A stretch of 64,000 nucleotides of DNA from Tabrizicola sp. (GTDB lineage: Bacteria; Pseudomonadota; Alphaproteobacteria; Rhodobacterales; Rhodobacteraceae), in contig JALOTD010000008.1 in NCBI GenBank assembly GCA_025458105.1, positions 1-64,000 of the forward strand, in the 5' to 3' direction. The position numbers and the translations under genes are program-made. The notes under the pieces were generated by a model. That model worked only from the letters and a program-made list of their open reading frames with translations. It ran no database searches and had not been told where the DNA came from. This document shows, piece after piece, positions 1 through 35,115 of the stretch (positions within the stretch are counted from its first letter, which is position 1; each line of letters starts with the position of its first letter).

Positions 1-492
<492 letters not shown>

Positions 493-20231: not shown

Positions 20232-20271
20232 GCCGGTGTAGCTCAGCTGGTAGAGCACGTCATTCGTAATG
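20232..20271 (+). tRNA. 5' part of a tRNA-Thr(CGU) gene split by integration
   Basis: These 40 bases give acceptor 5' strand GCCGGTG, D arm (GCTC/GAGC), and the anticodon stem and loop CGTCA-TTCGTAA-TG. The sequence then departs from tRNA. The missing 3' part is found at 35080-35115, where CACCGGC pairs with GCCGGTG and CCA is encoded. Joined, the two parts make a normal 76-nt tRNA-Thr with anticodon CGT. The left junction does not restore a 3' half. Confidence 0.93.
20257..20271 (+). other. attL core of the integrated element
   Basis: The 15-bp sequence ACGTCATTCGTAATG occurs here and again at 35065-35079; flanking bases differ on both sides. It lies across the anticodon loop of the target tRNA gene, a usual crossover site for tyrosine integrases. 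Confidence 0.92.
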
Positions 20272-20275
20272 CGAA

Positions 20276-20301
20276 AAACGGGGCAACACTCATACCCGTT
20301 T
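20276..20301. repeat. Inverted repeat next to attL
   Basis: AAACGGG and CCCGTTT flank a 12-base spacer five bases inside the element, a plausible recombination-accessory or integrase arm feature. Function is inferred from position only. Confidence 0.4.
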
Positions 20302-20415
20302 GACCGTCAAAGCTCAATAAAATCAGGTACTTCGCCCACACTCGGTTGTGTTTGATCCGGCGTAGAACGTATCGTGAACCTTGCAACAAAACCGGCATTG
20401 CAAGGAACCTCGATC

Positions 20416-21642
20416 ATGCCTCAGATCAAGTTCACAGATACGACCGTCGCCAAGCTGAAGACCGACACGACTACCTGGTACTCGGACGCGACAGCCAAAG
20501 GCCTACGCCTCTGCGTTACGGCGGGCGGGGTAAAGACCTGGTACTGCAACAAGTGGGACCCGAAGACGCAGAAGGTGCGCCAGGTCAAGCTGGCTCAATG
20601 GGCTTCCAAAGGGACGCACTCGGCTTGGGCGAAAGACCAGATCGGAAAGGTCGTCCTCGACGTGAAGGAGGGCCGCGTAAAGACGAAGGCAGAGATGACC
20701 GTTGCGCGCGCAGGCATCCCGACGCTGCGCGAGGCGTTCGACAAGGAGATGGGTTTCCGCCGCACGCGACCTGCATCCTTGGGCGGCGCGATCCACGCGC
20801 GGACGGACGACAGCTACTGCCGCGCCTTTGACAAGTATCTGGCGACCTGGGCAGACGACAAGATGGACGAGATCGACACGGCGGCAATTCAGAGGATGCT
20901 CGACGACCTTGTGAACGAGAAGCCATTCGCCGCGCACAAGGTCAACGTGGTCCTTGGGATCACGTTCAAGCGGGCGGAGCGGATGCTAAACAAACCGCTT
21001 CCTACGCTGACACCAAAGCTCGCGACTCTGCCCAAGATGCAGCAGCGGGAGATCGACTTTACGATCCCCTGGAGCAAGCGCTGGGCAGAAATCCAGGCCA
21101 TCGAGAACGAGCACATCCGCCTGCTGTGGCAGATTCGTTGGTTCACGGGACAGCGCGAAGAAATGCTCCGCGCCTTAAAGTGGTCGGATATCGACCTTGA
21201 GGCGGGGACCGTAATGGCGACCACCGGCCAGAAGAAGGTGAAAGAGAAGCGACTGATCGCTGTGGCTGATCCGGTCAAAGGATGGTTTAGGCGGCTGTGG
21301 GAGATCAGGTTCGACGACTGCGACTGGGTCTTCCCGTCGCGCCGTCGCATCGGTGACTTGCGGGGGCCGCTCGACCGGCTCGACCGCCTTGCACTGACAG
21401 CTCCTGGCGACGTCAGGCACCTCTGGGACGAGGCGACCCACGACGTGGACACGCGTGAGATGGTCTTGCGCTGGCTGACAGGGCACACCCTCGACGGAGC
21501 AGAGACTAAGTCACTCGGATTCTACGGCACGGTTCCGGTCGAACGGCAACGCAAGGTAGCGAACGAAATTGCCCGTGTGATCGAACGCCGGTGTGAGGCT
21601 TCACCTGCGAACGTGGTTGAAATGGGTCGAGCGCGGGCCTAA
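20416..21642 (+). CDS. Tyrosine-type site-specific integrase
   Basis: The product has 408 residues when started at ATG 20416 (MPQIKFTDTTVAKLK), with a ribosome binding site CAAGGAAC. The N-terminal part resembles the DUF4102-type arm-binding domain of P4-like integrases (WYSDATAKGLRLCVTAGGVKTWY). The catalytic domain shows the first Arg in WFTGQREEMLRALKW, a Lys in TGQKKVKEKRL, the second Arg in GDVRHLWDEA (the preceding His of the usual H-x-x-R is Gly), GH in WLTGHTL and the nucleophilic Tyr in SLGFYG. It directly abuts attL and should catalyse integration into tRNA-Thr. A GTG at 20374 in frame is an alternative start. Confidence 0.92.
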   Translation: MPQIKFTDTTVAKLKTDTTTWYSDATAKGLRLCVTAGGVKTWYCNKWDPKTQKVRQVKLAQWASKGTHSAWAKDQIGKVVLDVKEGRVKTKAEMTVARAGIPTLREAFDKEMGFRRTRPASLGGAIHARTDDSYCRAFDKYLATWADDKMDEIDTAAIQRMLDDLVNEKPFAAHKVNVVLGITFKRAERMLNKPLPTLTPKLATLPKMQQREIDFTIPWSKRWAEIQAIENEHIRLLWQIRWFTGQREEMLRALKWSDIDLEAGTVMATTGQKKVKEKRLIAVADPVKGWFRRLWEIRFDDCDWVFPSRRRIGDLRGPLDRLDRLALTAPGDVRHLWDEATHDVDTREMVLRWLTGHTLDGAETKSLGFYGTVPVERQRKVANEIARVIERRCEASPANVVEMGRARA

Positions 21643-21786
21643 CTTCGACGGCACCAACGGGCGCTCACCACCGTCGCCTGATGCCTGCGGGGTCAGGTCG
21701 AAGGTGGGACCGGAGACGCAACGCAGGACTTGGCGGTCGAGGCAACGGCGTGAACAGCCGACCGCGTTGCACACCCGAGGATCACA

Positions 21787-22023
21787 ATGACCCTGAATGA
21801 GATCGGTCAGCAGCTTGCCGAGCTGCGCGACCAGCTGCAGAAGACCTTCCCGAAGGACGTCCTGACGCCCGGGGAGGCTGCCGAGATGATCGGCGTCTCG
21901 ACGGAGACGCTGTTCCGCTGGCGGAAGGATGGCTTTGGCCCGAGGTATTCCCAGCCGAACCACCGCATCGTGCGCTACCTGCGCGAGGACGTGCTCCTTT
22001 TTCTGAAGGAGCATCGGAAGTGA
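21787..22023 (+). CDS. AlpA/excisionase-like helix-turn-helix protein
   Basis: The product has 78 residues. The C-terminal half is a MerR-like winged helix (LTPGEAAEMIGVSTETLFRWRKDGFGPRYSQPNHRIVRYLREDVLLFL), the pattern of AlpA/Xis proteins that regulate integrase or help excision. An N-terminal amphipathic helix of about 25 residues may dimerise. It follows the integrase gene and overlaps the next start (ATGA-like, 22020), so it likely begins a small operon. Confidence 0.8.
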   Translation: MTLNEIGQQLAELRDQLQKTFPKDVLTPGEAAEMIGVSTETLFRWRKDGFGPRYSQPNHRIVRYLREDVLLFLKEHRK

Positions 22024-22556
22024 AGATCACGATCCACCCCCATCGCGCGGCTCGGTTCGAAGTCGAAACGGACGCGGGCACCGTCGAGTGCAAGACGGAG
22101 GACCTTATGTCAGAGGCAAGGTTCGCGAAGGCGCACCTGAACCACACCGACAGGTTCTGGCATCCGGTCGGTCAGGCTGCTTTCGTGAAGATGGTCGAGC
22201 AGGCTCTCGCAACGTCCAAGCGCAGCACCACCGTGCCCAAAGAGCGGATGATCGTCGCGCACCTCTGGGACTTCGTTCACTTTGGCCGTCTCGACAAAGG
22301 CGAGGACGACGCGCAAGTCCACAACGGCGCTGTGCTGTGGATGCCGGACAAGGTGTCCGCACTCTTTAGATTCGACTTCTTCTTGTCGCACATGAAGCGC
22401 CGCTCGACCATTGACGTGAGGCCGTCAGAGGTCAGTGAGATTCTGATCCGGACGAAGATCGGATGGGCGCGTTCCAACACCCACATTGCGCACCGTCAGA
22501 TCAGGCCCTTCGAGGTCAACCTGGTCCAACTTGAGAAGGTGTATCGTGGCAACTGA
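22020..22556 (+). CDS. Element protein of unknown function
   Basis: The product has 178 residues with no signal peptide or membrane segment. It is basic with several His and Trp residues (HTDRFWHPVG, VAHLWDFVHFGRLDKGEDD). I do not recognise a family. It overlaps the AlpA-like gene upstream and the next gene downstream, so all three are probably co-translated. Confidence 0.65.
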   Translation: MKITIHPHRAARFEVETDAGTVECKTEDLMSEARFAKAHLNHTDRFWHPVGQAAFVKMVEQALATSKRSTTVPKERMIVAHLWDFVHFGRLDKGEDDAQVHNGAVLWMPDKVSALFRFDFFLSHMKRRSTIDVRPSEVSEILIRTKIGWARSNTHIAHRQIRPFEVNLVQLEKVYRGN

Positions 22557-23052
22557 GGAGGAACTGCTCGAACGTCGCCGCGAGGCCGAGCGTCAGGCGC
22601 GTGAGGCCCGGTCGCAGGCTGCACGGGATGCGGGACACCCGGAATGGGCGGACCTGCCTCAGAATCGCAGCGTTGCCCGGTCTCTGGGGGTGTCGTCCTA
22701 CTTCACAGGGCGTCCGTGCGAGGCTGGGCACATCGCCCTGAAGTCGACGCGCTCGCAGAAGTGCGAAATGTGCGCTGGTGTCCGCAATCCTGTGGGCCGT
22801 CCGCGCCTGCGCCCAGTCGAGACGAGGACGGTCTGGGAGCGGCGGTTCCAGCGTGCGGCTGAGTTGACCATCTGGCACCGGACGATGCACCACCTTCGCA
22901 GCAACGGTGTCATCTACAAGACCGACCAGAAGGTCGAAGGTGATCCGTCTGAGGCGTATCGCGAGGCTGCGCGCAAGACCGATGCCACGGGCAAGCTTCA
23001 CTGCGTCATCTACAGGAGTGGTCGCTTCCTTGTTCGCACGGTCGCTGACTGA
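22546..23052 (+). CDS. Element protein with zinc-binding-like Cys/His cluster
   Basis: The product has 168 residues from GTG 22546, which lies inside the previous gene. After a charged helix (EEELLERRREAERQAREARSQ) comes a cluster PCEAGH...KCEMC that resembles the Cys-rich linker seen in phage HNH and related DNA-binding proteins (G-x-x-C-x-x-G-H-x-A-x-K-x-x-x-C-x-x-C). No HNH catalytic residues follow, so a DNA-binding role is only inferred. The frame continues upstream to 22486, but GTG 22546 fits the overlap spacing. Confidence 0.55.
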   Translation: MATEEELLERRREAERQAREARSQAARDAGHPEWADLPQNRSVARSLGVSSYFTGRPCEAGHIALKSTRSQKCEMCAGVRNPVGRPRLRPVETRTVWERRFQRAAELTIWHRTMHHLRSNGVIYKTDQKVEGDPSEAYREAARKTDATGKLHCVIYRSGRFLVRTVAD

Positions 23053-23091
23053 CGCGCCGGGGGTGGAAATCAGGCGTCTCGCGTGCGCGTC

Positions 23092-23129
23092 ACGCGTGCG
23101 CACATGTACGCACGCGTGAAGGAGTTTTT
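23092..23129 (+). terminator. Inverted repeat with T-run after the first element operon
   Basis: ACGCGTGCG and CGCACGCGT form a perfect 9-bp stem around an 8-base loop, with TTTTTT starting seven bases later. This could end the integrase-side operon; the gap before the T-run makes the call uncertain. Confidence 0.5.
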
Positions 23130-23272
23130 TCGTTGAAGCCAGTTGGGTCATGCAGCGGTATTGCTGAAGCGAGAAAGGTGGTTCCTGTTTGTTATCAGGT
23201 GGTTGCACCTCGTTTGTGGGGTGATCGGGGACAGGTGGGGTCAATCATTCCAATGAGTTACCAGGAGCGGTA

Positions 23273-23515
23273 GTGCTGCATGACGGTTCTGGATGCTGGA
23301 TTCCAGGATGGCTGACACTGGATGATCATCAGGAAATGATGGTGATGGGTCGCGCGCGTGCGCGTAAGAGGGGTGGCGATCCGGTCTTGGGCAAGTCGCG
23401 ACAGCTTCCCTGGGCAGGAGAAGAAGCGCGTCCTCTAGACCTTTCTCGGGGTCGCATCATGTTCAATGATCAGGTCAAGCATCCTAACCACTTGATCGGC
23501 AACGACTTCACCTGA
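23273..23515 (+). CDS. Possible small element protein
   Basis: This is a GTG-initiated frame of 80 codons with CAGGAG at a fitting distance upstream. The product has no recognisable motif and a mixed composition (MLHDGSGCWIPGWLTLDDHQ at the start). It is the only frame in the 837-base gap with a plausible ribosome binding site. It may equally be non-coding. Confidence 0.3.
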   Translation: MLHDGSGCWIPGWLTLDDHQEMMVMGRARARKRGGDPVLGKSRQLPWAGEEARPLDLSRGRIMFNDQVKHPNHLIGNDFT

Positions 23516-23889
23516 TCAGGTCCTTGCAACACTGGTCGGATTGCAAACTCGACCGGGGATTGCTGGTGACACCCCCTTTCTGACAGCGCGGGGAACCGAC
23601 CCCCGGCAGATTTAGAAATTCACAGATTCTGGGTTTTCCCCACCCGCACCACCGCCCCCACAGCGTCGCCATTACCTGCAACCCCCACACAGCGCCCAGC
23701 AGCTTCGATTCTATGCGGGTTCCGACCCTGGCGGGTATGCCGACAGGGCACCACCCCGAGACACCGCCTTAGCGCCTTGCTGCTGAAGTCCCGCACCAAG
23801 TCGCCCTATTCCACCTCAAACTTCGATCTACAAGCCCGAGTGTTCTCTTTACGTTCGCAGAAGCCTCACCACGCAAAGGAACCTCACTC

Positions 23890-24186
23890 GTGCGGAAGTA
23901 CACCATCGAAGCCACCTCCCCCGCGTCTTGCCGCCTCGTCGGCAAAGACATCGTCAACTCCTGGCACTTGCCGCTCCCCATCTCTGCCGAAGACGCGCAC
24001 GCCTTGGTCCTGGCGACCTTCCGCGCCCCGGAAGACGGGTCCTGCCAGCGCCGGGAACTGCACGGCGTTCTTGCGGACAAACTCTCCGATGGAGTCCGTG
24101 TCCGCATCGTCGCGAGCATGAACCACTTCGACCTGCCCTGGTCCCACATCGCCGCAGGCCTTGAGATCAAGGAACTCGCCCAATGA
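23890..24186 (+). CDS. Small element protein of unknown function
   Basis: The product has 98 residues from GTG 23890, preceded by AAAGGAACC. It is a soluble mixed alpha/beta-looking sequence (ISAEDAHALVLATFRAP) without known motif. Its stop overlaps the portal start (ATGA), so it heads the packaging operon. Confidence 0.55.
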   Translation: MRKYTIEATSPASCRLVGKDIVNSWHLPLPISAEDAHALVLATFRAPEDGSCQRRELHGVLADKLSDGVRVRIVASMNHFDLPWSHIAAGLEIKELAQ

Positions 24187-25577
24187 CCAAGATCTATCAC
24201 AGAAGCTACGCGCGCCGTCGTCAGGAGTATGACCGCATCCGCGATACCATCGAAGGCGAACTCAGGCTGAAAGAGGCAGGCCAACTCTACCTTCGCCGCC
24301 CCAGCGGCATGACCCAGCAGCAGTACCACGACTACCTGCTCGGCGCGGCCTTCTACGCAGTTGCCGAGCGCACCTTGCGGGGCCTTGTTGGAGCAGCCAC
24401 CCGCCACGAGCCAATCCTGGAACTCCCGCCCCGCCTGACGCCGATGCAGGAAGCCGCAACCTTCGAAGGCAACAGCCTCCAAGTCCTGATCGAACAGGCC
24501 CTGACGGAAGTCCTGAGCGTCGGGCGGTTCGCGATGGTTCTGGATTACCCCGTGGAAACCTCCTCGCCGACTGCAACCCCACACATCGCGACCTTTGAGG
24601 CGGAGCACATCCTGGATTGGCGCGAGGACCTTGTGGACGGGAAGCAGCGCCTCACGATGATCCGCCTCCACGAGGGCAACGCGGACCTCGAAGACGAAGG
24701 CGTGGAGCAGCATCTGCTTCTGACCCTGGAACCCGCTTACACTGTCAGAAGGTTGCACGTCACGACGAAGCGTCGTGGCGACGGGTCTTCCCAGGTCGAA
24801 CAAGTCGAAGTCCATGACCCGATCACCCCGGAAGTGAACGGTCGTCCGCTGTTCGAGATTCCCGTGGTCATCGTCTCGCCCTTCAATCTGAAGGCCGACG
24901 TTGAGAAGCCGCCCTTTCTGGATTTGGTCAACGTCAACCTTGCCCATTGGCGCAACTCTGCGGACTATGAGCACGCGCTCTATTTGACCGCCCAGCCAAC
25001 GCCCTGGATCGCAGGGTCGATCCCCGCGGACAAAGTGCCGACGACCATCGGCAGCGGCGCGCTCTGGCACCTGCCCGAAGGCGCAACCTGCGGGATGTTG
25101 GAGTTCTCCGGTGCAGGCATTGCCGCACAAAAGGCTGCAATGGAGGACAAGGTCTCACAGATGGCCGCCCTTGGTGCCAGGATGGTCTACAGCGGCAAAG
25201 GCCGGAATGAGACCTCGGACACGGCATCACTCCGCGTCAAGGACGAGCTTTCTCTCCTGCACAGCAGCGTCGTCATGGTCGAAGCGGCCTTGCGGAAGCT
25301 CCTCCGCATCGCGGCTGAGTGGACTCAACCTGGCACGGCTGACCAGGTTGTCCTCAAGTTGCACCGCGACTTCGTCAGTGCCCAGATGGACCCCGCGACC
25401 TTGACCGCTTTGATCAAGGCTTGGCAGGCGGGTGCAATCTCCCACGACACCCTCCTCATGAACATGAAGAAGGGCGACCTGATGGACGTGAACCGCGCCC
25501 TCGACGACGAGAAGGAACTGATCGAGACCGACGACCGCGACCCGATCCTGGGCGTTATCCAAGGGGGCCTTGCTTGA
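24183..25577 (+). CDS. Phage portal-like protein (DUF4055)
   Basis: The product has 464 residues. It matches the DUF4055 family as I know it, a group of portal proteins in tailed phages: N-terminal GQLYLRRPSGMTQQQYHDYLLGAAFY...ERTLRGLVGAATR, then the signature PPFLDLVNVNLAHWRNSADYEHALYLTAQPTPWIAG, and GMLEFSGAGIAAQK. The portal is the dodecameric vertex channel through which DNA enters the head. The gene precedes, rather than follows, the terminase genes, and no capsid gene accompanies it. It is coupled to both neighbours by 4-base overlaps. Confidence 0.85.
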   Translation: MTKIYHRSYARRRQEYDRIRDTIEGELRLKEAGQLYLRRPSGMTQQQYHDYLLGAAFYAVAERTLRGLVGAATRHEPILELPPRLTPMQEAATFEGNSLQVLIEQALTEVLSVGRFAMVLDYPVETSSPTATPHIATFEAEHILDWREDLVDGKQRLTMIRLHEGNADLEDEGVEQHLLLTLEPAYTVRRLHVTTKRRGDGSSQVEQVEVHDPITPEVNGRPLFEIPVVIVSPFNLKADVEKPPFLDLVNVNLAHWRNSADYEHALYLTAQPTPWIAGSIPADKVPTTIGSGALWHLPEGATCGMLEFSGAGIAAQKAAMEDKVSQMAALGARMVYSGKGRNETSDTASLRVKDELSLLHSSVVMVEAALRKLLRIAAEWTQPGTADQVVLKLHRDFVSAQMDPATLTALIKAWQAGAISHDTLLMNMKKGDLMDVNRALDDEKELIETDDRDPILGVIQGGLA

Positions 25578-26287
25578 CGCCATCGGAAGCTCTGGGCGAA
25601 GCCGTCCTGCGGCAGGCCGTCACGGACCTCTTCATCAAGTCCGCAGCACAGAGAAGCGGCGCTACCGACGCCAATCCGGGCGAAGACAACAAGCTTGAAG
25701 CCCTGAAGTTTCTCACGGACGAGAGCGGCGCGTTCGCTGAATCTAGAGCTTTCTGGTGTGAGCGCGTCGGAAGGAACCCAGACCACCTTCGGAAAACGAT
25801 CATCGCGCTTCTCGAAGGCGATGATCGTCTCCTGGACCTTTATCCGGGCGGGAAGTTCGACCGTGCCGCTGCACTAGAGGAGACAAGAGCCATCTACCTC
25901 GCACGCAAGCGCGAGATTGAGACGGCGAAGGTGCGCTGGCTTGAGGCTGCCCGCCGCCGAAAAGAGGCTCTGGAACGGAGCCTTCATATGGACCTTCTTC
26001 GCCGCGCGAACGCGGAACGCCGAAAGTCGGCGCGTAGCTTCAAAGGGACCGTCTATTCCTCGGCCCGAGACGCGAAAGTCGCGGCGGTCCTGGACACCTT
26101 GAAGGGCGGGCCGCTTCTGGTCAGCAGAGTTGCTTTTGAGCTGGAACTCGGTTGGGAGACGGCGAGAAAATGGCTTGAAGAAGCCGAACGCCGAGGCCTC
26201 GTTGAACGTCTGGAGAAAGGCCTCTGGCAACTGGCACCTTCTTCTTTGCAAGCGGCACCTCAACTCGCGGTTGCGGCCTCCGGGTGA
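25574..26287 (+). CDS. Element protein with C-terminal winged-helix-like domain
   Basis: Starting at TTG 25574, which overlaps the portal stop as TTGA, the product has 237 residues. The N-terminal part is acidic and helical (ESRAFWCERVGRNPDHLRKTIIALLEGDD). A basic coiled stretch rich in Arg and Glu follows, then a probable winged helix (LLVSRVAFELELGWETARKWLEEAERRGLVERLEKGLWQL). This could be DNA recognition for packaging or regulation. The open frame extends upstream inside the portal gene, so the start is uncertain. Confidence 0.55.
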   Translation: MTPSEALGEAVLRQAVTDLFIKSAAQRSGATDANPGEDNKLEALKFLTDESGAFAESRAFWCERVGRNPDHLRKTIIALLEGDDRLLDLYPGGKFDRAAALEETRAIYLARKREIETAKVRWLEAARRRKEALERSLHMDLLRRANAERRKSARSFKGTVYSSARDAKVAAVLDTLKGGPLLVSRVAFELELGWETARKWLEEAERRGLVERLEKGLWQLAPSSLQAAPQLAVAASG

Positions 26288-26341
26288 GCCATCTGAACAT
26301 CGAGAAGTAGGGTGAGGCCCTGCTTCTTTCCTGTGTCAACA

Positions 26342-26372
26342 GGCTGGGGCGGGCGACACGTTCGCCCCAGCC
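26342..26372. repeat. Strong hairpin before the next packaging gene
   Basis: GGCTGGGGCG and CGCCCCAGCC form a perfect 10-bp stem around an 11-base loop, 55 bases after the upstream stop and 21 bases before the next ATG. There is no T-run, so it may be a processing or translational control structure rather than a terminator. Confidence 0.5.
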
Positions 26373-26392
26373 AAACAGAGAAGGAGTGCAAC

Positions 26393-26773
26393 ATGGCCGA
26401 CAACGACGACAACGACCCGAACGCAAAGCAAGCGAAAGCCCTCATCGACGCCCTCGGACCCAAGGTGGCAGAAGCCATCCTGCCCGCCTTGCAGAAGCAG
26501 GTGGAGGAGCAGATTTCCGGCGTTCTGAAGAAGAACGACGAACTCCTGGAGAAGATCGCGCGCTCGAAGGCCGACGACGACATGACGCGCCTCCTGGCCG
26601 CCGCGGACCAGCAGATGAAGGACCGCCTGAACAAAGACGGCACCCTGAACTTCCGCAAGGCAGGCGACCCGGTTCGCGTCAGCAAGGAAGATGCACGTGA
26701 TCCGCGCAAGTACGCCAAAGCCAAAGAGCTTGCGGCGAAGCAGGGCGTGCCTTTGGAGATCGTCCGAGGATGA
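26393..26773 (+). CDS. Small coiled-coil element protein in packaging operon
   Basis: The product has 126 residues, highly charged and helical (KVAEAILPALQKQVEEQISGVLKKNDELLEKIARSK), with a basic C-terminus. It starts at ATG 26393 behind a good AAGGAG site. Composition and position are like small scaffold or packaging accessory proteins, but I recognise no family. It overlaps the terminase small subunit start (ATGA). Confidence 0.6.
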   Translation: MADNDDNDPNAKQAKALIDALGPKVAEAILPALQKQVEEQISGVLKKNDELLEKIARSKADDDMTRLLAAADQQMKDRLNKDGTLNFRKAGDPVRVSKEDARDPRKYAKAKELAAKQGVPLEIVRG

Positions 26774-27372
26774 AGCGCGCGACCTGGCCGAAGGGCGCAC
26801 CAGTCCCCAAGGCCGGGACGCACAAGCTCGGGATGCTGCCGAAGGAGAAGCGTGACGAGATCGTCCGCGACGTGGTCCTCGGGCGCAAGTCCATGTTCCA
26901 GGTCAGCCGGGAGATGATGGTGTCGGACACCTCTGTCTCCCGGTTCATGCGCACGGTGCCTGAGGAGGAGCGGCTGGCGATCCTCGCCCAGGCCGCGCAC
27001 GACGCGAAGATTGCGGAAGCCAACCGCAACGCGATCCTCGTCAACGAACTTGGCGAGGACACAGAGAAGGACCTGAAGTGGGTCCTGCACGAGCTAAAGA
27101 CGCTCTTGTCCGCCGCACGGGGCGACGACGAGAAGCTCGTCCAGCTTGGTACCCTGAAGGAGGTTCGGCAGGCGCTCATGTCACTGGCCGAGTTGCAGGG
27201 GAAGCTGAACCGCAAGGTCGAGATCAGTCTGAACCTGTCAGAGTCCCCACAGTTCATCCAGCTTCGCCAGATCATTCTCTCGGTCCTGGACCGACACCCG
27301 GAGGCGAAGGCCGACTTCCTCCAAGAAATGCGAGTCCTGCAAGTCATCGACGCGAAGGCCGTCCCGGCGTGA
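26770..27372 (+). CDS. Terminase small subunit-like protein
   Basis: The product has 200 residues. A helix-turn-helix is seen near residues 24-60 (LPKEKRDEIVRDVVLGRKSMFQVSREMMVSDTSVSRFM), followed by a long helical region and a C-terminal segment. Position directly before the large terminase genes and the HTH support a DNA-recognition (TerS) role; identity by sequence alone is moderate. It is coupled to the upstream gene by ATGA. Confidence 0.7.
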   Translation: MKRATWPKGAPVPKAGTHKLGMLPKEKRDEIVRDVVLGRKSMFQVSREMMVSDTSVSRFMRTVPEEERLAILAQAAHDAKIAEANRNAILVNELGEDTEKDLKWVLHELKTLLSAARGDDEKLVQLGTLKEVRQALMSLAELQGKLNRKVEISLNLSESPQFIQLRQIILSVLDRHPEAKADFLQEMRVLQVIDAKAVPA

Positions 27373-27408
27373 GGCTGGGCGCGGCCACCCGACGAAAGAA
27401 GAACCTGG

Positions 27409-28185
27409 ATGATCCACGACAAGCACCTCCTCGGCTTCCTACAGGGCCTGACGGTCAGCCTCGATCCGGTCGAGCGGTTCCGTCTCGCCATTGGGGAACC
27501 TGATCCCTGGCAGGTCGAACTGTTGCGCACGGACCCTTCCCGCAATGAGGAGGACCGCATGGTGCAGGCGCTGTGCGGTCGCCAGTCGGGCAAGTCGACC
27601 ACCTGTGGATGCTTGGCTTACGACGACTTCTCCAAAGGCAAGACTGTGATCCTGACAGCGCCGTCCTTGCGGCAATCGACGGAGTTGTTCCGTCGCATCT
27701 TGGAGTTCAAGAACACGGACCCTTTTTGCCCGCCCATCGTTCGCCAGACTCAAACTGAATTGGAAGCGCACCCACGCCACGGTGGCCGGATCATTGTCGT
27801 CCCGGCCACGGATCAGGCCCGTGGCATGACCGCAGACACGATCCTGGCCGACGAGGCGTGCTTCTTGCAGGACGATGCGCTGACGGCCTTCTTCCCGATG
27901 CGGAAGGAGTCCGGTCGCATCTTCCTGCTGTCCACCCCGAACATGCGGCAGGGGTACTTCTATGACACTTGGGTCTCCGGGAAGCGGGTCCGGCGGATCA
28001 CGGCGCGGAGCATCGACATTCCACGACGTGCGGCCCAAGTCGCCTTCGACAAGGCCACGATGAGCGAAACGACCTTCCGGCGCGAGCACCTGTGCGAGTT
28101 CATCGGCGCGGGAACACCCCTCATTGCCTGGGACAGCCTCGAGCGCGCGTCCAACCCTCACGTCAAAGCCCTGGAGCTATCTTGA
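27409..28185 (+). CDS. Terminase large subunit, ATPase domain as a separate gene
   Basis: The product has 258 residues and carries only the packaging motor. Motifs: Q-motif-like region WQVELLR, Walker A CGRQSGKST (G57 to T64), Walker B TILADEACF with D148 and catalytic E149, and the coupling motif IFLLSTPN (171-178). The nuclease domain normally fused to it is encoded by the next gene, whose ATG overlaps this stop as TGATG. The protein ends with EFIGAGTPLIAWDSLERA, where large terminases usually continue into the nuclease. Confidence 0.88.
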   Translation: MIHDKHLLGFLQGLTVSLDPVERFRLAIGEPDPWQVELLRTDPSRNEEDRMVQALCGRQSGKSTTCGCLAYDDFSKGKTVILTAPSLRQSTELFRRILEFKNTDPFCPPIVRQTQTELEAHPRHGGRIIVVPATDQARGMTADTILADEACFLQDDALTAFFPMRKESGRIFLLSTPNMRQGYFYDTWVSGKRVRRITARSIDIPRRAAQVAFDKATMSETTFRREHLCEFIGAGTPLIAWDSLERASNPHVKALELS

Positions 28186-28901
28186 TGCAACCGACCAACC
28201 TCGTTTTCCATAAGGACGGTTCAGTCACCCTGCCGTCGAACGCCGACCCCGCGGCGGCTGGGACGACGAAGCACGGCTGGGTCCGTCACCGCGTCGGCAT
28301 GGACCTTGGACGGAACGACCCGAGCGCCATCGTGGTCGTACGGGACGAGTGCGTTCCCGAATTCACGGGCCGGGGCTTTGAGCAGAAGCTTGGCCCTCGC
28401 CGCGCGACAGTCGTCTTCCAAGAGACGATCCAACTCTACTCTTACACGGACCTTGCCGACTACCTCGTAAAGCGTCTCAACCAGATTCCGAATTGGACCT
28501 TGGCTATAGACGCTTCCGGCCTTGGCGCGCCGTTCAGCAGCACCTTGGACCTCGCCAGGATCGAACACTGGTCGGTCGTCATGACCGCTGGCGCGAACCT
28601 GTCCAAGAAAGGGAAGGTGATCACCTGTGCAAAGTCGTTGCTTCTGGAAAACCTCGCGACCGGGATCGAGACAGGCGGCCTGACCATCGCGGACGACCTG
28701 AAGGGCAAACAAGACCTTCTCAATGAGATCGCTTCATTCGAATTGACGGCAACCTCATCCGGAAATCTCGTACTCGCCGCGAGCAAGTCTCAGGCTGGCC
28801 ACGCTGACCGCGCGATTGCCTGCTCCTTCGCTTGGCTCCAAGTCACACATCTCGACGACATCGCCCAAGGCGGCGTCCACAAGATCAAGAACTGGTACTA
28901 A
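28185..28901 (+). CDS. Terminase large subunit, RNase H-like nuclease domain as a separate gene
   Basis: The product has 238 residues. It shows the acidic motifs expected of a terminase nuclease: D40 in GMDLGRNDPSAIVVV, D109 in LAIDASGLG and D208 in GHADRAIAC. It should cut concatemeric DNA at the start and end of packaging. The ATG at 28185 overlaps the ATPase gene stop by one base. Both halves retain all motifs, so this looks like a real two-gene terminase rather than decay, though an ancestral frameshift followed by a gained start is possible. Confidence 0.85.
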   Translation: MQPTNLVFHKDGSVTLPSNADPAAAGTTKHGWVRHRVGMDLGRNDPSAIVVVRDECVPEFTGRGFEQKLGPRRATVVFQETIQLYSYTDLADYLVKRLNQIPNWTLAIDASGLGAPFSSTLDLARIEHWSVVMTAGANLSKKGKVITCAKSLLLENLATGIETGGLTIADDLKGKQDLLNEIASFELTATSSGNLVLAASKSQAGHADRAIACSFAWLQVTHLDDIAQGGVHKIKNWY

Positions 28902-28948
28902 CGCGACCGACCTTGCCGCCCCGCGATGCGCTTGGTAGCGTCCAAGGC

Positions 28949-29242: not shown

Positions 29243-29251
29243 ACTGGACAG

Positions 29252-29614: not shown

Positions 29615-29660
29615 CCACGTTCATTTGGCTGCTTTACCGAGTTTAGCTTAAGGCCTGGCA

Positions 29661-31955
29661 TCATTTGCAGGCAGTGCACATCTTCTTGTAGTGATCTTTT
29701 CCGACTTCCTTAATGAAATCCATACCCGCTTGGGCCGCTCGGATCGCCTCTTCCAATGTAAGGTCTGGCAGAGTACCCAGGCCGTCGATTGTGCCGTGTG
29801 ACTCGATTTGTACGAGCCTCTCAAGAGCGCGAACATCGAGCTTGTCTTTCACAGTATCATGGTGGTCTCCAAGTGCGCCGGCAAAATTAGGCTGCCCAGG
29901 GGAACAGAAGGCCGCGAACATCTCAAGAAGCTTGCGAGTCGCGTTCGGAAGCAAGAACAGGTAGTCGGTTGTCTTATTTTGGGCCGCATCCTGAACCAAT
30001 TTGAAAAGGTAGTGATATTCGCTGTCATGAGTCACTAGCAGTGGATGCATAGGGGTCAGCGTGGTTACACGCTCATCACCGCTCCCAGAGTTCCGGCAAT
30101 CTAGCGACAAGAGGGCGGTTACCTTATTCGAAGTATCCCGCTTCTGAAGGTTTTGAAACTCGCGCTTCACCATGTTCATGAAGCTCGTATTGTGCGTGAG
30201 GACAATGACCTGGGCACATTTCTTGGTCATGCGAGTCATCAGGCTATAGGCATAAGTTCGAGCAGCGGTATCTAGGCTCGAAATCGGGTCGTCTATGACC
30301 AGTACGAGATCTTCGGCCTTGCGACCCTCTGCAGCTAGTTGCGTCAGGAAGTAGCAGAACGACACTGCTGTCCGTTCGCCTTCACTTAGCTCTGTCGCTG
30401 GTTTCCCGCTCGGTCGGAGGATTTTGTAGCCGCCAGAATCGGCAACAAGGCGAAGTTCTTTGTGCCCAAGGTAGGCCGAAATGAGTTCATTCATCTTCTC
30501 TGCGCCGACTCCGTGGTCTTGCAGATCGTTGAGCAGCTCCAGCTGACGGTCGGCAAGATCTTTCTCGTCTTTGCGCGCAGCTGAAAGTTCTGTGTCAGCA
30601 TCTTGCACATCCTTCTGGAGGCGGTGCCAGTCGCCTTGGTTGGTCGCCAGAACGTGCGTTTCGATTTTCGCAAAGGCATCCTTCTGCATCGTCGAAAAAC
30701 TCGCGAAGGCATCATTGTGCTCCGTCACGGCCTTGGACAAAGCGGTCTCTATTGACGCATATTCTGTAAGCCACTCCTCAACGTCAAAGTCGGCCAACTC
30801 TCCGGCGACCACGACTTCCTTGGTGGGGTTCGCTGCGCGCACTTCAAGGCTCTTGATAAGCTCTCCCACACAGACGCCAAGCTGCTTAATGGCGGCCTCA
30901 AAGAACGTCCGGCTCTTGCTGAAGGCTTCCCGCTCTTCGGCGGCGATTTCTGCTTCCTTGGGGATAGACCGATAAAACTCCCTTAAAGTCTGTTGGTGTT
31001 GCTGGCCGAGCTTAAGTGCGTCTTCCAAGGCGCGAAGCGCTTCAGTCCACGACTTGTCGAAAAGAACCCGAAGCTGCGTTCGGCGTTCTTCAGAGAACAG
31101 ATTTCCACAAAGCAAGCAGTCAGTCACGCTGTGTTCTTCGTGATAATGTAGCCCTTCCTCCACCCAGCGAAGGGCATCCGAGTGTGCCTCAAACTCCTTC
31201 AATGCGATGCCGGAAACACTCTGGGTCAAGAGGGCTTGACCGGCCCTGAACCAGTCTATTACACCCGCCGGAAGGCTTGGGGAAAACGAAAGCGCCGGGA
31301 GCGGTTCTCGCTGAGCAAGCAATCCTTGCTTTTTCTTAAGGTCTTCTTCGGACAGCTTCTTTTCCGCGCCAAAGGAAGCCTTCGAGTAATGCCCTTGGAT
31401 CTTTCGAGCGTCGTAGGACTGTGTGTAATTGCTCGATGGGGCGACTTCTCGGATGTTGCGAGCTACTCGTGTCTTGAAATCCGATAAGTCCTTGTCGGCC
31501 TTGGCCTTTGCCTTCTCATTCGCCTTGGTTTTTTGCTTTGCAGCTGCAAGTTTCGGAACTATCTGGTCAAACTCTTTTCGAGCATCGACCTTCTTTTCAC
31601 TCAGATATGCAATTCCCTTGGTGCTACTTTCATCCCACTCAAAGTTTCTGGACACAAAGTCCGTATTGAAGACCAGCAAGTTGTTCCCAAACGGATTCGC
31701 AATTAACTCGTGTGTGATGGTTGAGCCGTCAGAAGCTTCAATTCTGAACGTTGTTTCTGCAGGCAATCGTTCCTCAAGACTACCCCGCTCAATCGAAGAA
31801 AAAACTCGCGAGAGGGTCGTTTTTCCTGATCCGTTGAAGCCGTAAACCAAAGTACGAGGTGCTAAATGAAGATCAGTGGAAGCGGAGAAGTCTTTCCAAA
31901 CCCCGGCTTGCTTCAGCTCGGAAACTTGGCTAACGAACAAGTGCGGATGCTCCAC
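29661..31955 (-). CDS. RloC/PrrC-like AAA (AAA_13) ATPase, putative anticodon nuclease
   Basis: The product has 764 residues. It is an SMC/Rad50-like ABC ATPase with Walker A GFNGSGKTT (39-47), signature ELSEGERTA (522-530), Walker B LVLVIDDPISSLD (550-562) and switch His in VLTHNT. Between the halves are long coiled coils and a CLLC motif at 280-283 like the zinc hook of RloC. The C-terminal region has NATRKLLEMF (R674, E678) and ESH (H720), an Arg-x3-Glu...His pattern like that proposed as the active site of PrrC-type anticodon nucleases. Known relatives cut or excise tRNA anticodon nucleotides on phage infection. Nuclease activity here is inference; the ATPase family is clear. Confidence 0.82.
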   Translation of the reverse strand: MEHPHLFVSQVSELKQAGVWKDFSASTDLHLAPRTLVYGFNGSGKTTLSRVFSSIERGSLEERLPAETTFRIEASDGSTITHELIANPFGNNLLVFNTDFVSRNFEWDESSTKGIAYLSEKKVDARKEFDQIVPKLAAAKQKTKANEKAKAKADKDLSDFKTRVARNIREVAPSSNYTQSYDARKIQGHYSKASFGAEKKLSEEDLKKKQGLLAQREPLPALSFSPSLPAGVIDWFRAGQALLTQSVSGIALKEFEAHSDALRWVEEGLHYHEEHSVTDCLLCGNLFSEERRTQLRVLFDKSWTEALRALEDALKLGQQHQQTLREFYRSIPKEAEIAAEEREAFSKSRTFFEAAIKQLGVCVGELIKSLEVRAANPTKEVVVAGELADFDVEEWLTEYASIETALSKAVTEHNDAFASFSTMQKDAFAKIETHVLATNQGDWHRLQKDVQDADTELSAARKDEKDLADRQLELLNDLQDHGVGAEKMNELISAYLGHKELRLVADSGGYKILRPSGKPATELSEGERTAVSFCYFLTQLAAEGRKAEDLVLVIDDPISSLDTAARTYAYSLMTRMTKKCAQVIVLTHNTSFMNMVKREFQNLQKRDTSNKVTALLSLDCRNSGSGDERVTTLTPMHPLLVTHDSEYHYLFKLVQDAAQNKTTDYLFLLPNATRKLLEMFAAFCSPGQPNFAGALGDHHDTVKDKLDVRALERLVQIESHGTIDGLGTLPDLTLEEAIRAAQAGMDFIKEVGKDHYKKMCTACK

Positions 31956-32049
31956 TCAAATGAACTCGTGGCGACGTTATGGATCCTGAATGAGTATGCT
32001 ATCAGCTTTGTTTGAACGCAACCCAAACGTTCAGCCAGGGGTTGTCCGA

Positions 32050-32280
32050 TAGCGGCTGTGTCCAAGACCTGCCGATTTGGTCCCGCTGTGCACGTACTGT
32101 CATCCGATGGTTCACACGGCGCGGTCAACACGGACCATCGACGAGTTGCGCGGGGTGCTCGTGCAGTTAAACCTCGTCGCCATGACCTTGCCAAAATCTT
32201 GTCGGACACCGACCGGATGGAACGCATCGAACTCAAAAACAAGCATGACCGCTACCGATACCTCAACGGTCATAGGCTAG
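32050..32280 (+). pseudogene. Fragment of an HNH endonuclease gene
   Basis: In a different frame from the next gene, the sequence encodes LVPLCTYCHPMVH followed by a helical tail (RSTRTIDELRGVLVQL). L-x-x-L-C-x-x-C-H-x-x-x-H is the C-terminal half of a classical HNH finger. A stop at 32050 and no start upstream show that the 5' part is gone. It overlaps the beginning of the HNH-like gene at 32217. Confidence 0.55.
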
Positions 32281-32609
32281 CGGCCAAACAGGCCTTGGAT
32301 CGCGCGCGGAAGATCGGCGCGGCCCCGCCGTGGCTGACCCAGCATCACCTCGACACCATCGAAATGATTTTTGGCGAGGCTTGGATGCTGTCGAACTTTG
32401 CTTTCCAGACTTTCGTCGTGGACCACATTGTGCCGTTGCAAGGTCGCTGCCCGATCACGTTGGAGCGGAACGTCTGCGGCCTTCATGTTCCTTGGAACCT
32501 GAGGCCGCTGCCTGAGCGGGCAAACAAAGAGAAGGCTGACTGGTTCGTCTCTGACTGGACCGAGGTCGAGGGCTACGGGGGTAATGGCGACGGCGAGGGG
32601 CCGTTCTAG
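32217..32609 (+). CDS. HNH-type nuclease-like phage protein
   Basis: The product has 130 residues from ATG 32217. An N-terminal helical segment (NKHDRYRYLNGHRLAAKQALDRARK) is followed by PPWLTQHHLDTIEMIFGEAW and the core FVVDHIVPLQG...NVCGLHVPWNLRPLPERANKEK. D-H-I-V-P-L plus G-L-H-x-P-W-N-L is the pattern of a compact phage HNH family whose members nick or cut DNA near packaging sites. The frame upstream to 32058 is open but overlaps the HNH fragment, so the ATG is preferred. Confidence 0.72.
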   Translation: MERIELKNKHDRYRYLNGHRLAAKQALDRARKIGAAPPWLTQHHLDTIEMIFGEAWMLSNFAFQTFVVDHIVPLQGRCPITLERNVCGLHVPWNLRPLPERANKEKADWFVSDWTEVEGYGGNGDGEGPF

Positions 32610-32625
32610 GCAGTCTACCGCCTCT

Positions 32626-32796
32626 TCACGAGAAGGTAAGGTTCGACAGCAAGTCCTTCACTTCAGCTTTTTCGTCCGGCCCAAGAAGACGCTTCGAGTC
32701 TTCTCGAAGTGATTTGGGTTCCTTGATTGGCGGCAACTTGACGTCTGGCCGCGGCATCGGATCGTAGAGTAGTTCCTGAGGGGCTGGCTTATGCAT
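32626..32796 (-). CDS. 56-codon gene overlapping the Ntn hydrolase gene
   Basis: The product is a 56-residue Pro- and Lys-rich soluble peptide (PDVKLPPIKEPKSLREDSKR in the middle, ending LLSNLTFS). Its ATG (32796) lies eight bases inside the upstream Ntn hydrolase gene, with GGAG seven bases before it. Tight overlap suggests coupled synthesis and a possible partner, substrate or inhibitor of the peptidase. No family is recognised. Confidence 0.6.
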   Translation of the reverse strand: MHKPAPQELLYDPMPRPDVKLPPIKEPKSLREDSKRLLGPDEKAEVKDLLSNLTFS

Positions 32797-33634
32797 GGTC
32801 AGTCTCCAGGGGGTTAAGGTCACGCGAGTAGTAGTGCTTCCGCTTGATCCACTTAAAGCCTTCGTGCTTCGTTACCGTGGCGACATCTAGCTCACCACCG
32901 ACGGTATTCGACCCAATCGAGAAGCGGACAAATTGTTTCTGAGCATCCGCAAGAAACATGGCGAGGTCGATTGCGTCACGAGTCGGCATGGCAGGGTTTG
33001 CAAGACCTGCTTGGGTCCGAGCAGCAACATGACGCATACAGGCTTCAAGTTTGTCCGGCGGAAGGCCGGCGGACAGGAGTGCTTCTGGTAGGCCTTGGCC
33101 GTAGCCAAGCAGGATGCGGTTGATCGCTTCTGTCTGGCCGCCCCAACTGATCATGTTCGACACGTCCTTGGACGCCTCGCAATGCGGCGGGGGACAGTCG
33201 CCGTCGTTGATCTGGAGCTTCCAAATCTCACCCAAGTCCTGCTTGGCTGAGTAACCGCCGATCCAGTACTGGAAGGTGCCCATTGGCTTTTCGGTCAGCT
33301 TTGAGAATCGCTCTTCGAACAGGTACTTACGCGCTTTGGTCGCGACCTCTTCAAGCGTGTAGTCGGCCCCAAGGGCATAGTCTGGGTCACCATTGGTAAA
33401 CAACGCCCGAAGGTCTTTCGAGATCGTCGAGATCGAGCAAGCACCGAAGTTTCCGATTCCTGCGGTCATCGCGGCGATGGGCAGACGCTTGTGCAGATTG
33501 AAGACCTTGTTCGCATGGTCGTAGATGTTGACCACGAGTTGAGCACCAGTTTGATCCTGGCCAGTCAGGGTCGTCGCACTGTCAGCTGCGAAGACGATGC
33601 AATCATGAACCTTCAAGGCAACGCAGACCGTCAT
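32789..33634 (-). CDS. Proteasome-type Ntn hydrolase
   Basis: The product has 281 residues. The N-terminus MTVCVALKVHDCIVFAADSA matches proteasome beta/HslV/Anbu subunits: after Met removal Thr1 is the nucleophile and Asp17 falls at exactly the expected place (FAAD). The Lys equivalent to K33 is probably in ANKVFNLHKRLPIAAMTAG, about nine residues later than usual, so the S2-S3 hairpin is longer. The C-terminal half (helical, AIDLAMFLADAQKQF) exceeds HslV (about 170 residues) and Anbu (about 240). A self-compartmentalising peptidase is likely; no unfoldase gene is next to it. Confidence 0.78.
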   Translation of the reverse strand: MTVCVALKVHDCIVFAADSATTLTGQDQTGAQLVVNIYDHANKVFNLHKRLPIAAMTAGIGNFGACSISTISKDLRALFTNGDPDYALGADYTLEEVATKARKYLFEERFSKLTEKPMGTFQYWIGGYSAKQDLGEIWKLQINDGDCPPPHCEASKDVSNMISWGGQTEAINRILLGYGQGLPEALLSAGLPPDKLEACMRHVAARTQAGLANPAMPTRDAIDLAMFLADAQKQFVRFSIGSNTVGGELDVATVTKHEGFKWIKRKHYYSRDLNPLETDHA

Positions 33635-33878
33635 GAGCTCTCCTTCCCATGCCGACCATTGAATCAGAAAAAGGAAGCAGATTCAAAGTGATATAGTGAG
33701 TCGTTTTCAATGACTTGCTCTCAGCTCCGCTCGTCGATCAGTGCTGGACAAGTGGAATCATCCTAAGATGGCGTCCGTATGGCGGTCGGGCCGTGATCCA
33801 GGACTTCGGTGACTATCACCACTAACAACTCAGCCCCTTGCGCGTAGCACCTCGACCGTTTAAACGACCCGCTGCGTA
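33635..33878. other. Intergenic region between Ntn hydrolase start and tRNA-Thr
   Basis: This 244-base region holds the minus-strand promoter of the Ntn hydrolase operon and the plus-strand promoter of the tRNA. The segment 33683-33720 is AT-rich (GATTCAAAGTGATATAGTGA). I see no gene or convincing promoter match. Confidence 0.4.
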
Positions 33879-33954
33879 GCCCCAGTAGCACAGCTGGTAG
33901 TGCACCTCATTCGTAATGAGGGGGTCGGCGGTTCGAGTCCGTCCTGGGGCACCA
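33879..33954 (+). tRNA. Complete tRNA-Thr(CGU) carried by the element
   Basis: The 76-base cloverleaf includes encoded CCA. Acceptor GCCCCAG/CTGGGGC, D stem GCAC/GTGC and anticodon stem CCTCA/TGAGG are all perfectly paired; the T stem GGCGG/CCGTC has one G-T pair. The anticodon CGT is at 33912-33914 in loop TTCGTAA. It has the same anticodon and loop as the chromosomal tRNA gene that the element has cut, but different stems. It probably replaces the lost host tRNA. Confidence 0.96.
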
Positions 33955-34018
33955 CTCACCCACACCTAGACGAAGCACCTTTCGGCTGTGCATGGCGGCA
34001 TGAACTGGAGAGGCCAGC

Positions 34019-34990
34019 GTGGTTACCTACGGTACGGAACGTCTAGGCATCGCCGCTGTTCAGTCTAGGGTTGCCGACCTACTTCAAGTCTGGAGAGAGA
34101 CATCTACAGGGGATTTCGGGATTGACGGACACATCGAGCTTGTCCGAGACGGTCACATCCCCACGGGGTTGATGGTTGGCGTCCAGGTAAAATCTGGCCC
34201 TTCATACCTCGGACGTGAGACTGATCAAGGGTATGCCTACACGGTAGCTGAGCAGCATCAACTCTACTGGGAGCATTACCCGGTACCTGTGCTCCTTGTC
34301 CTGCATGATCCAAAAGAACGCGTTTCATACTGGACAGATGTTCGGCAGGCGCTTCGGTCAGGTGCTACTAGGTCTCGCACCGTTGTAGTTCCAAAGGCAA
34401 ACGTCCTTCAGACAGCAACGATTGATGCTCTCTTTGCGAACGCAGGAGTAAACCCAACAGAGTATGTCTCTGAAACAGACGACCTAGTCAGGATTTTGGT
34501 TGAGACGCAAACCGGCAACGCCGGTTTCGATCTAAGCTACTTCGACCTGTTCTGCTTGGGGATGACCAATATTGCGCGCAGCTTGTACTTCGGCATGGAC
34601 CTCGCACTGAAGATTGCTGAACACCGCCTGGATGAAGCGCAGGCCGAACACGGAATGACCGTCGGCGGCGCCGACTACGACTTTCTTGAGGCCTACATCA
34701 AGTTTTTGGTCAGCCAGAACATCGTTCACGCCAACTATTCTGATCTACTGATCGACCTGCACGATAGGGAGATGATCCCTGAATTCATCGTCCCGCTCTC
34801 CAAGAGGGGACGAGCGCTTCGAGATGCGATATCTGCGAACGAGGACGCTCTCGTTGCCGCGTCCAGCATCGAAGGAAGCCGATATCGCGCAATCCAGGAG
34901 AGCTTCGTTGAAATCGTCGAACTCCCGATGTTGCCCCGGTTTGGCCGTGTGGCCGATATCAGGAAACTAATTGCGACCAACCTGACCTGA
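34019..34990 (+). CDS. DUF4365 domain protein, predicted PD-(D/E)xK-type nuclease
   Basis: The product has 323 residues from GTG 34019. The N-terminal 120 residues show the DUF4365 pattern ERLGIAAVQSRVADLLQVWRE, then GDFGIDGHIEL and VGVQVKSG, in which Asp, (Glu/Gln) and Lys match the metal-binding core of PD-(D/E)xK nucleases with a Q-x-K variant. The C-terminal 200 residues are helical with no known domain and may be a sensor. It is the last gene before attR, a usual place for defence cargo. Activity is inferred. Confidence 0.72.
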   Translation: MVTYGTERLGIAAVQSRVADLLQVWRETSTGDFGIDGHIELVRDGHIPTGLMVGVQVKSGPSYLGRETDQGYAYTVAEQHQLYWEHYPVPVLLVLHDPKERVSYWTDVRQALRSGATRSRTVVVPKANVLQTATIDALFANAGVNPTEYVSETDDLVRILVETQTGNAGFDLSYFDLFCLGMTNIARSLYFGMDLALKIAEHRLDEAQAEHGMTVGGADYDFLEAYIKFLVSQNIVHANYSDLLIDLHDREMIPEFIVPLSKRGRALRDAISANEDALVAASSIEGSRYRAIQESFVEIVELPMLPRFGRVADIRKLIATNLT

Positions 34991-35032
34991 CTTGCAACAT
35001 CCTTGCAATGCGGCAGAAGAACACAAGAAAAT

Positions 35033-35050
35033 CCAATTAAATCAAATTGG
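35033..35050. repeat. Inverted repeat next to attR
   Basis: CCAATT and AATTGG flank a 6-base spacer, 15 bases before the attR core. It is a possible integrase arm or accessory factor site, mirroring the inverted repeat next to attL. Confidence 0.35.
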
Positions 35051-35064
35051 TTACGTGCTTACCG

Positions 35065-35079
35065 ACGTCATTCGTAATG
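35065..35079 (+). other. attR core of the integrated element
   Basis: This is the second copy of ACGTCATTCGTAATG, followed directly by the 3' part of the host tRNA-Thr gene. Bases just upstream do not restore the tRNA 5' half. Confidence 0.92.
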
Positions 35080-35115
35080 ATGGGGTCGGGGGTTCGAGTC
35101 CCTTCACCGGCACCA
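35065..35115 (+). tRNA. 3' part of the split tRNA-Thr(CGU) gene
   Basis: It holds the anticodon stem-loop copy, variable region, T arm (GGGGG TTCGAGT CCCTT), acceptor 3' strand CACCGGC and encoded CCA ending at 35115. CACCGGC complements GCCGGTG at 20232, which proves that the two parts were one gene. There is no acceptor 5' strand or D arm here. Confidence 0.92.

Follow-up and report, generated by a model that had tools for sequence, protein, structure and literature searches.

The window considered here, a stretch of 64,000 nucleotides (nt) from a draft genome of Tabrizicola sp. (assembly GCA_025458105.1, contig JALOTD010000008.1), contains a host tRNA-Thr(CGU) gene that is broken at the anticodon by a 14.8-kb integrase element (Table 1). 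The inserted DNA comprises 14,808 bases (35079 minus 20271) and holds a complete tRNA-Thr(CGU) gene near its far end. An earlier sequence-only reading had proposed that the host gene is divided into two parts with a joined length of 76 nt, that neither junction rebuilds it and that a full tRNA with the same anticodon is carried within the element. The coordinates of the split hold, with the joined halves recognised by ARAGORN as a 76-nt tRNA-Thr(CGU), and ARAGORN likewise identifies the complete tRNA of the element and reported no tRNA at either junction when the window was scanned. The direct repeat at the two ends, representing the attachment (att) core, is only 15 nt long, therefore neither junction rebuilds the host tRNA-Thr(CGU), and no att repeat long enough for tRNA restoration, of the kind expected of a tRNA-restoring tyrosine-integrase island, was found for this element. 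Complete tRNAs reported by ARAGORN in the window are two, the element-borne (cargo) tRNA-Thr(CGU) and an unrelated tRNA-Val (38798-38872).

The empty site is seen in a genome of the same genus (G191), in which one intact tRNA-Thr(CGU) is 76/76 identical to the joined halves. The DNA upstream of it, including the counterpart of the window's hemY region, aligns at 77% over 1214 bp, with the right flank not aligning with the window. The bacterial attachment site (attB) overlaps a host tRNA gene, split here and intact in G191, such that the locus was not already split in this relative. In the source draft genome (4.1 Mb, 165 contigs, approximately 90% complete, 40 tRNA-family matches) the cargo is the only complete tRNA-Thr(CGU) among the 40 matches by ARAGORN, which gave three Thr isoacceptors (GGU, CGU and UGU) with one gene each. 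A CGU-specific pattern matched only the host 5′ half and the cargo copy, and no second host tRNA-Thr(CGU) was found in this approximately 90% complete draft.

The integrase and portal genes of the element are joined by a large terminase that appears to be spread over two consecutive frames (27409-28901, plus strand), the ATPase part being followed by a second conserved frame, likewise in related elements. Of the proteins or protein frames of the window element, 15 were compared with PHROGs and none hit a capsid or tail family, in a search that did not include every small frame. The element, for the frames searched, combines an integrase with packaging genes and lacks a full virion gene set, as expected of a phage satellite. 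The nearest phage portal proteins are those of Dinoroseobacter phages (48-51% identical), which is a lead only on a helper, and all matches to the terminase among eight phage records listed are below 35% identity. The integrase had no match in the phage collection, and an integrase-alignment scan of viral contigs gave no relative. The AAA_13 protein (29661-31955, minus strand) has a CLLC motif in mid-protein, presumably zinc-hook-like as in RloC, and is a possible anticodon nuclease beside a tRNA gene.

Table 1. Features of the window element (window positions) and of further elements in the same genome (contig positions)
Feature	Position	Strand	Evidence or content
5′ half of split host tRNA-Thr(CGU)	20232..20271	+	40 nt; identical to 5′ part of intact G191 tRNA
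Left copy of 15-nt att core ACGTCATTCGTAATG	20257..20271	+	direct repeat
Tyrosine integrase	20416..21642 (open frame from 20374)	+	PF00589 E 1.4e-6; PHROG integrase E 1.8e-18; above cut-off
Primase-like protein (weak)	22020..22556	+	phrog_21866 E 6.4e-7; no match in other elements compared
Portal protein	24183..25577	+	phrog_145 E 1e-114; PF13264 DUF4055
Conserved element protein	25421..26287	+	conserved in relatives; no family match (Pfam, PHROGs)
Conserved element protein	26312..26773	+	conserved in relatives; no PHROG match
Conserved protein, small-terminase-like by position only	26770..27372	+	no family match
Terminase large subunit, ATPase part	27409..28185	+	phrog_7579 E 1.9e-41; PF03237
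Separate second frame after terminase ATPase, probable nuclease part	27969..28901	+	phrog_27743 (function unknown) E 1.4e-24; conserved
AAA_13 defence ATPase related to PrrC/PDC-S06	29661..31955	-	PF13166 E 5.5e-120; PADLOC PDC-S06 E 9e-139, PrrC E 2e-16
Endonuclease VII-like protein	32058..32609	+	phrog_1035 E 5.9e-5
Conserved protein, also in G402 element	32789..33634	-	sequence comparison of elements
Promoter-like TTGCGC-N15-TTTAAA upstream of cargo tRNA	33838..33864	+	read from sequence
Complete cargo tRNA-Thr(CGU)	33879..33954	+	ARAGORN; Rfam tRNA 68 bits; compensatory changes among cargo tRNAs
DUF4365 protein, probable defence	34019..34990	+	PF14280 E 2.2e-30; PADLOC Argonaute-associated REase model E 6.5e-28
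Right copy of 15-nt att core ACGTCATTCGTAATG	35065..35079	+	direct repeat
3′ part of split host tRNA-Thr(CGU), with CCA	35080..35115	+	36 nt
C99 element (L047)	about 51,830-66,600		14.8 kb in tRNA-Thr(UGU); own integrase, type II restriction-modification pair, cargo tRNA-Thr(UGU)
C46 element (L124)			15.4 kb in tRNA-Gly(CCC), reversed; primase, portal, terminase, N6-methylase, cargo tRNA-Gly(CCC)
C85 (L044), complete tRNA-Gly(UCC)	220-293		
C85 (L044), 3′ half of another tRNA-Gly(UCC)	about 383-430		~90 bases on from the complete gene

Recurrence of split targets and cargo tRNAs

The window integrase was found in eight of 394 genomes of the family, the window's own included, and 10 loci, some of them in the same genomes, came from a scan across 84,980 species; its relatives adjoin split tRNA-Thr(CGU) in 10 other genomes. 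One strain with the arrangement of the window is Tabrizicola sp. SY72. At eight of the 10 loci the tRNA-Thr(CGU) 5′ half lies just upstream of the integrase, with the two most distant (L074 and L075, 38-39% identical) having the 3′ half upstream, which is the opposite orientation of the element. A complete tRNA-Thr(CGU) is present in nine of the 10 integrase genomes, either inside the element or on the contig that bears the opposite end (in G397, G398 and G403 the element ends lie on two contigs). Nine integrase genomes have exactly two matches to the CGU pattern, the 5′ half and the cargo, with no third, while G399, in which a contig edge falls inside the element, has the 5′ half only; G399 and G191 gave one match each. 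In G401/G022 the integrase lies in two frames, possibly through sequencing error, and the cargo tRNA is intact.

A portal protein was found in 14 of the 394 family genomes, including contig C46 of the window's genome and elements with other integrases. In G156, G229, G360 and G010 besides C46, tRNA-Gly(CCC) is split and a complete tRNA-Gly(CCC) lies inside the element, with the orientation reversed in C46 and G010; the family occurs in both orientations because the anticodon arm is palindromic. In G144 a 12-kb element lies in tRNA-Thr(CGU), its cargo being intact and the only complete CGU gene by pattern; here no relative of the element integrases could be detected, the portal frame is interrupted by a stop codon and the 3′ core is altered. 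Other relatives rebuild their targets, namely tRNA-Asn(GUU) in G251, G295 and G246 (45-47-nt repeats), tRNA-Arg(ACG) in G140 (46-nt repeat) and tRNA-Thr(UGU) in G044 (49-nt repeat), the integrase of the last being the nearest relative of the integrase of C99, another element in the window's genome (62%). In the split elements the short core that fails to rebuild the tRNA measures 7-16 nt across the 17 elements measured.

Altogether a split target with a cargo tRNA of the same anticodon was found in 18 elements with tRNA-Thr(CGU), -Thr(UGU) and -Gly(CCC) as targets (the window, C99, C46, G394-G398, G400-G403, G144, G156, G229, G360, G010 and G274). All but three (the window, C99 and G274) came to light in searches with an integrase or portal protein, regardless of tRNA; G144 was first met through the tRNA pattern and is also in the portal search. 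According to ARAGORN every one of the 15 delimited split elements contains exactly one complete tRNA, its anticodon in all cases that of the broken gene, whereas in the five rebuilding elements the only complete tRNA is the rebuilt one. Among the 20 elements found by tRNA-blind searches, 15 splitting with cargo and five rebuilding without an extra tRNA, there was no exception; so perfect a division would occur by chance once in 15,504 (hand-computed) if the 20 were independent, which they are not fully. These counts omit G399, G025 and G214, in which the element is cut off by the end of a contig, a second G140 integrase locus beside tRNA-Ala(CGC) that looks rebuilding when read by eye, and G142, G131, G102, G195 and G029 (apparent remnants or second genes). 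In G142 (L098) and G131 (L102) tRNA-Thr(CGU) 5′ halves lie near a complete tRNA-Thr(CGU) and are perhaps the remnants of decayed elements.

The source genome holds three such elements (window, C99 and C46; Table 1), with the arrangement on contig C85 being the probable right end of a fourth, at tRNA-Gly(UCC), although its left end with the tRNA-Gly(UCC) 5′ half was not found by pattern. No other complete genes for the cargo anticodons of C99, C46 and C85 were found in the draft by ARAGORN. Elsewhere in this genome (L027; contig C1, 31,000-31,072) a second, unusual tRNA-Asn(GUU) lies amid several tRNA-like fragments.

Across nine different Thr(CGU) cargo tRNAs 99.5% of stem cells are paired and changes on both sides occur at 13 of 21 pairs (0/500 shuffles; 2-4 pairs in slid versions), with the window cargo having a swapped D-stem pair, 12-23 being A-U instead of U-A. 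Cargo and target are 57-68/76 identical in 10 Thr(CGU) comparisons (10-17/19 in the anticodon arm), 53/75 for the Thr(UGU) element and 65-71/73 for three Gly(CCC) elements. The exact box GTTTAAACG lies just upstream of eight of 13 cargo tRNAs, with variants at three and none at C99 or G274; in G394 an exact copy also precedes the host gene that was split. A rule that the cargo must differ from its target to escape its own integrase was considered and is at most a tendency, the anticodon arm differing in the 10 Thr(CGU) pairs and G360 having identical genes.

Most of the elements measure 14-16 kb and combine genes for an integrase, a portal protein and a terminase with defence cargo. A portal relative was found in 12 of the 15 delimited split elements, the exceptions being C99, G401 and G274. 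Relatives of the terminase ATPase were found in 13 (all but C99 and G274), as were relatives of the element integrases (all but G144 and G274). A relative of the C46 primase, a protein matching the archaeo-eukaryotic primase domain, occurs in C46, G010, G156, G360, a G403 fragment and four of the five rebuilding elements. The right part of the elements is variable and rich in defence-like genes, including the PrrC/PDC-S06-like AAA_13 and DUF4365 genes of the window, the type II restriction-modification pair of C99, the N6-methylase of C46, a BsuBI/PstI-type endonuclease in G156 and DruA with an MzaB-like ATPase in G144; PADLOC at 1e-8 gave no match for four other proteins from these element regions. 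No capsid or tail family was matched by the 40 proteins in total that were sent to PHROGs, a search that did not cover every frame.

The G274 element (L097) has Pfam PAPS-reductase, AAA_23 and DndE/HerA domains and an integrase match that is weak and below cut-off. This domain set, which we take to be that of DNA phosphorothioation islands, marks it as a phosphorothioation-type defence island that splits tRNA-Thr(CGU) and carries a replacement; the proteins tested show no relationship between it and the window element. The roles of the genes are reversed in G274, where the host gene that is broken belongs to the GCCCCAA type and the cargo to the GCCGCTG type. As an island of another kind also splits and replaces its target, unlike elements use the same solution.

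Interpretation of the cargo tRNA

The sequence shows a host gene in two parts, a short repeat, an empty site that is intact in a relative, a cargo tRNA and recurrence in many related elements, which together point to tRNA-dependent integration by a satellite-like mobile element with a replacement tRNA-Thr(CGU), an interpretation that is very probably correct. Chance is no fair explanation because the same arrangement recurs in related elements. The tyrosine integrase would recombine at the anticodon arm of tRNA-Thr(CGU), and as the attachment site of the element (attP) would share only about 15 nt with its target, integration would break the host tRNA. The complete tRNA-Thr(CGU) near the far end, with its own promoter-like sequence and altered anticodon stem, would then make up for the break, being expressed and charged and restoring ACG decoding, while excision would rebuild the host gene and the host would be tied to the element. 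The strategy of complement by cargo put forward in the sequence-only reading is supported in that it fits all the evidence gathered; excerpts of a published study describe the same strategy as tRNA-dependent lysogeny (PMC10865867).

A number of observations weigh against this interpretation. The related elements are not independent, one cargo tRNA being common to G394 and G395 and another to G398, G400 and G401, and the altered cargo stem is not universal, with the G360 cargo matching its target at 73/73 positions. A further copy of tRNA-Thr(CGU) may lie on a missing contig, since the draft is approximately 90% complete and ARAGORN did not list tRNA-Tyr and tRNA-Ser(GCU) among its tRNA-family matches. 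Finally, 20 family genomes with a completeness of 99 or 100 had no match to the first CGU pattern, and a looser pattern gave no TTCGTAA with a fully paired stem, the best CGU arms, in G013 and G231, having 4/5 stem pairs; arms of Thr(UGU) or Thr(GGU) did come up in these 20. The isoacceptor can therefore be absent and its loss can be tolerable, at least over evolutionary time, such that the window cargo tRNA may be useful rather than vital.

A single tRNA-Thr(CGU) gene is otherwise the norm, because of the 295 family genomes searched with the CGU pattern, 242 of which had a match, 214 had exactly one and 28 two or more (hand count), some of the second matches not being tRNAs. Element carriers show two, the broken 5′ half and the cargo. 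For Thr(CGU) the 20 near-complete relatives weigh against the notion that the cargo tRNA is essential. The suggestion in the sequence-only reading that loss of the element by deletion, though not by precise excision, would be costly has observations on both sides: retention of the cargo in G144 and G401 is consistent with some cost, but a lethal cost does not agree with these same 20 relatives. In the 28 long host frames of the window ACG is used 15.9 times per 1000 codons, ACA 4.8 and GGG 22.4. Under standard decoding rules tRNA-Thr(UGU) is the only reader of ACA, and loss of Thr(UGU) or Gly(UCC) is expected to be more difficult than loss of Thr(CGU) or Gly(CCC).

It is improbable that the cargo tRNA is an incidental passenger, kept for codon supply or gene dosage, with the matching anticodon a coincidence or a by-product of recombination. 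Phages carrying tRNAs for other reasons are described as common in excerpts of PMC10865867, the identity of cargo and target in G360 is what a recombination by-product might give, and tRNA-Thr(CGU) is seemingly dispensable in some relatives. This is hard to reconcile with the single complete tRNA of the broken anticodon in each of the 15 delimited split elements and the lack of any extra tRNA in the five rebuilding elements, and most cargo tRNAs are clearly different genes from their targets (57-68/76 in the 10 Thr(CGU) comparisons). Less probable still, and by a clear step, is that the cargo acts mainly as an antidote to a tRNA-cutting defence such as the PrrC-like AAA_13 protein of the same element, a role against anticodon nucleases having been proposed for phage tRNAs (PMC10865867, in excerpt). 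The window element does encode a PrrC/PDC-S06-like protein, yet AAA_13 has no relative in the other elements tested, which carry a cargo tRNA all the same, the anticodon loop TTCGTAA does not differ between target and cargo, and only elements that break the host gene have the tRNA. That the host joins the transcripts of the two halves, well preserved as both are, and has no need of the cargo tRNA can practically be dismissed, the halves being 14.8 kb apart with foreign DNA at both junctions and no joining of tRNA half transcripts being known to us in bacteria.

Beyond replacement of this one tRNA by the element, a wider proposal can be made tentatively, with expectations for it slightly below even. 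A family of small, satellite-like elements of Rhodobacterales-type bacteria may replace the single-copy tRNA genes of their hosts piecemeal, breaking the palindromic anticodon arm in either orientation, such that several codons in one bacterium come to be decoded by element-borne tRNAs, the host is held and native genes are permanently replaced after the elements decay. The cargo tRNA has been kept in G144, where no integrase was detected, and in G401, where the integrase is split. In the present genome three isoacceptors each were found for tRNA-Thr and tRNA-Gly, of which mobile elements encode two and at least one, respectively, and the host probably leans on the element for part of its protein-making machinery. 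These observations bear on whether elements addict their hosts and on whether tRNA genes turn over through element-borne replacement, with the rebuilding relatives that lack an extra tRNA serving as internal controls.

Relation to known systems

The window-type elements resemble the satellites of the phage-inducible chromosomal island (PICI) and P4 types in size and gene set. PICI and P4 satellites are approximately 15 kb with an integrase, a primase in some, packaging genes and defence cargo and no recognised capsid or tail genes. Islander-type restoring elements, as far as excerpts of PMC4383910 describe them, have the same target genes and tyrosine integrases as the elements here. This mode is found in the close relatives G251, G295, G246, G140 and G044. 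There the repeat, of 45-49 nt, includes the 3′ part of the tRNA, unlike that of the window element.

The finding is not a new principle, as the logic of tRNA-dependent lysogeny is already in print. In Sinorhizobium meliloti prophages replace inactivated tRNA genes (PMC11476347), and this replacement has been attributed to prophages similar to phage Lo5R7ANS, excerpts of the same report describing it as absent from phiLM21-like prophages (PMC12429752). As here, the host is alphaproteobacterial and a phage-related isoacceptor gene that resembles genes of other species replaces the inactivated tRNA, as described in part of that work (PMC11476347). The searches made of open-licence literature gave no report of small satellite-like elements that use the strategy, or of its repeated use within one genome. 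With the elements described here, tRNA-dependent integration, so far a matter of whole phages, extends to small satellite-like elements that carry defence genes.

The closest comparison is with mycobacteriophages, in which tRNA-dependent lysogeny has been shown genetically (Guerrero-Bustamante and Hatfull, 2024; PMC10865867), with excerpts of that study reporting that phages that have 8-17-bp cores (Table 2 therein) and carry a tRNA of the same isotype depend on that tRNA for lysogeny. Like the present elements, the actinobacteriophages Fionnbharth, LeBron, Gaia and others combine a tyrosine integrase with an attB inside a tRNA gene; their short core fails to restore that tRNA, they bring a same-isotype tRNA of their own, and relatives switch between tRNA-dependent and rebuilding modes (PMC10865867, excerpts). 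They differ in being complete phages that use tRNA-Lys, -Ile2 and -Leu with genetic proof (PMC10865867, excerpts), whereas the elements described here occur in Rhodobacterales-type hosts, use tRNA-Thr(CGU), -Thr(UGU) and -Gly(CCC), are described from sequence and are mostly 14-16 kb; they carry defence genes, no capsid or tail gene was recognised in them, and one genome holds three.

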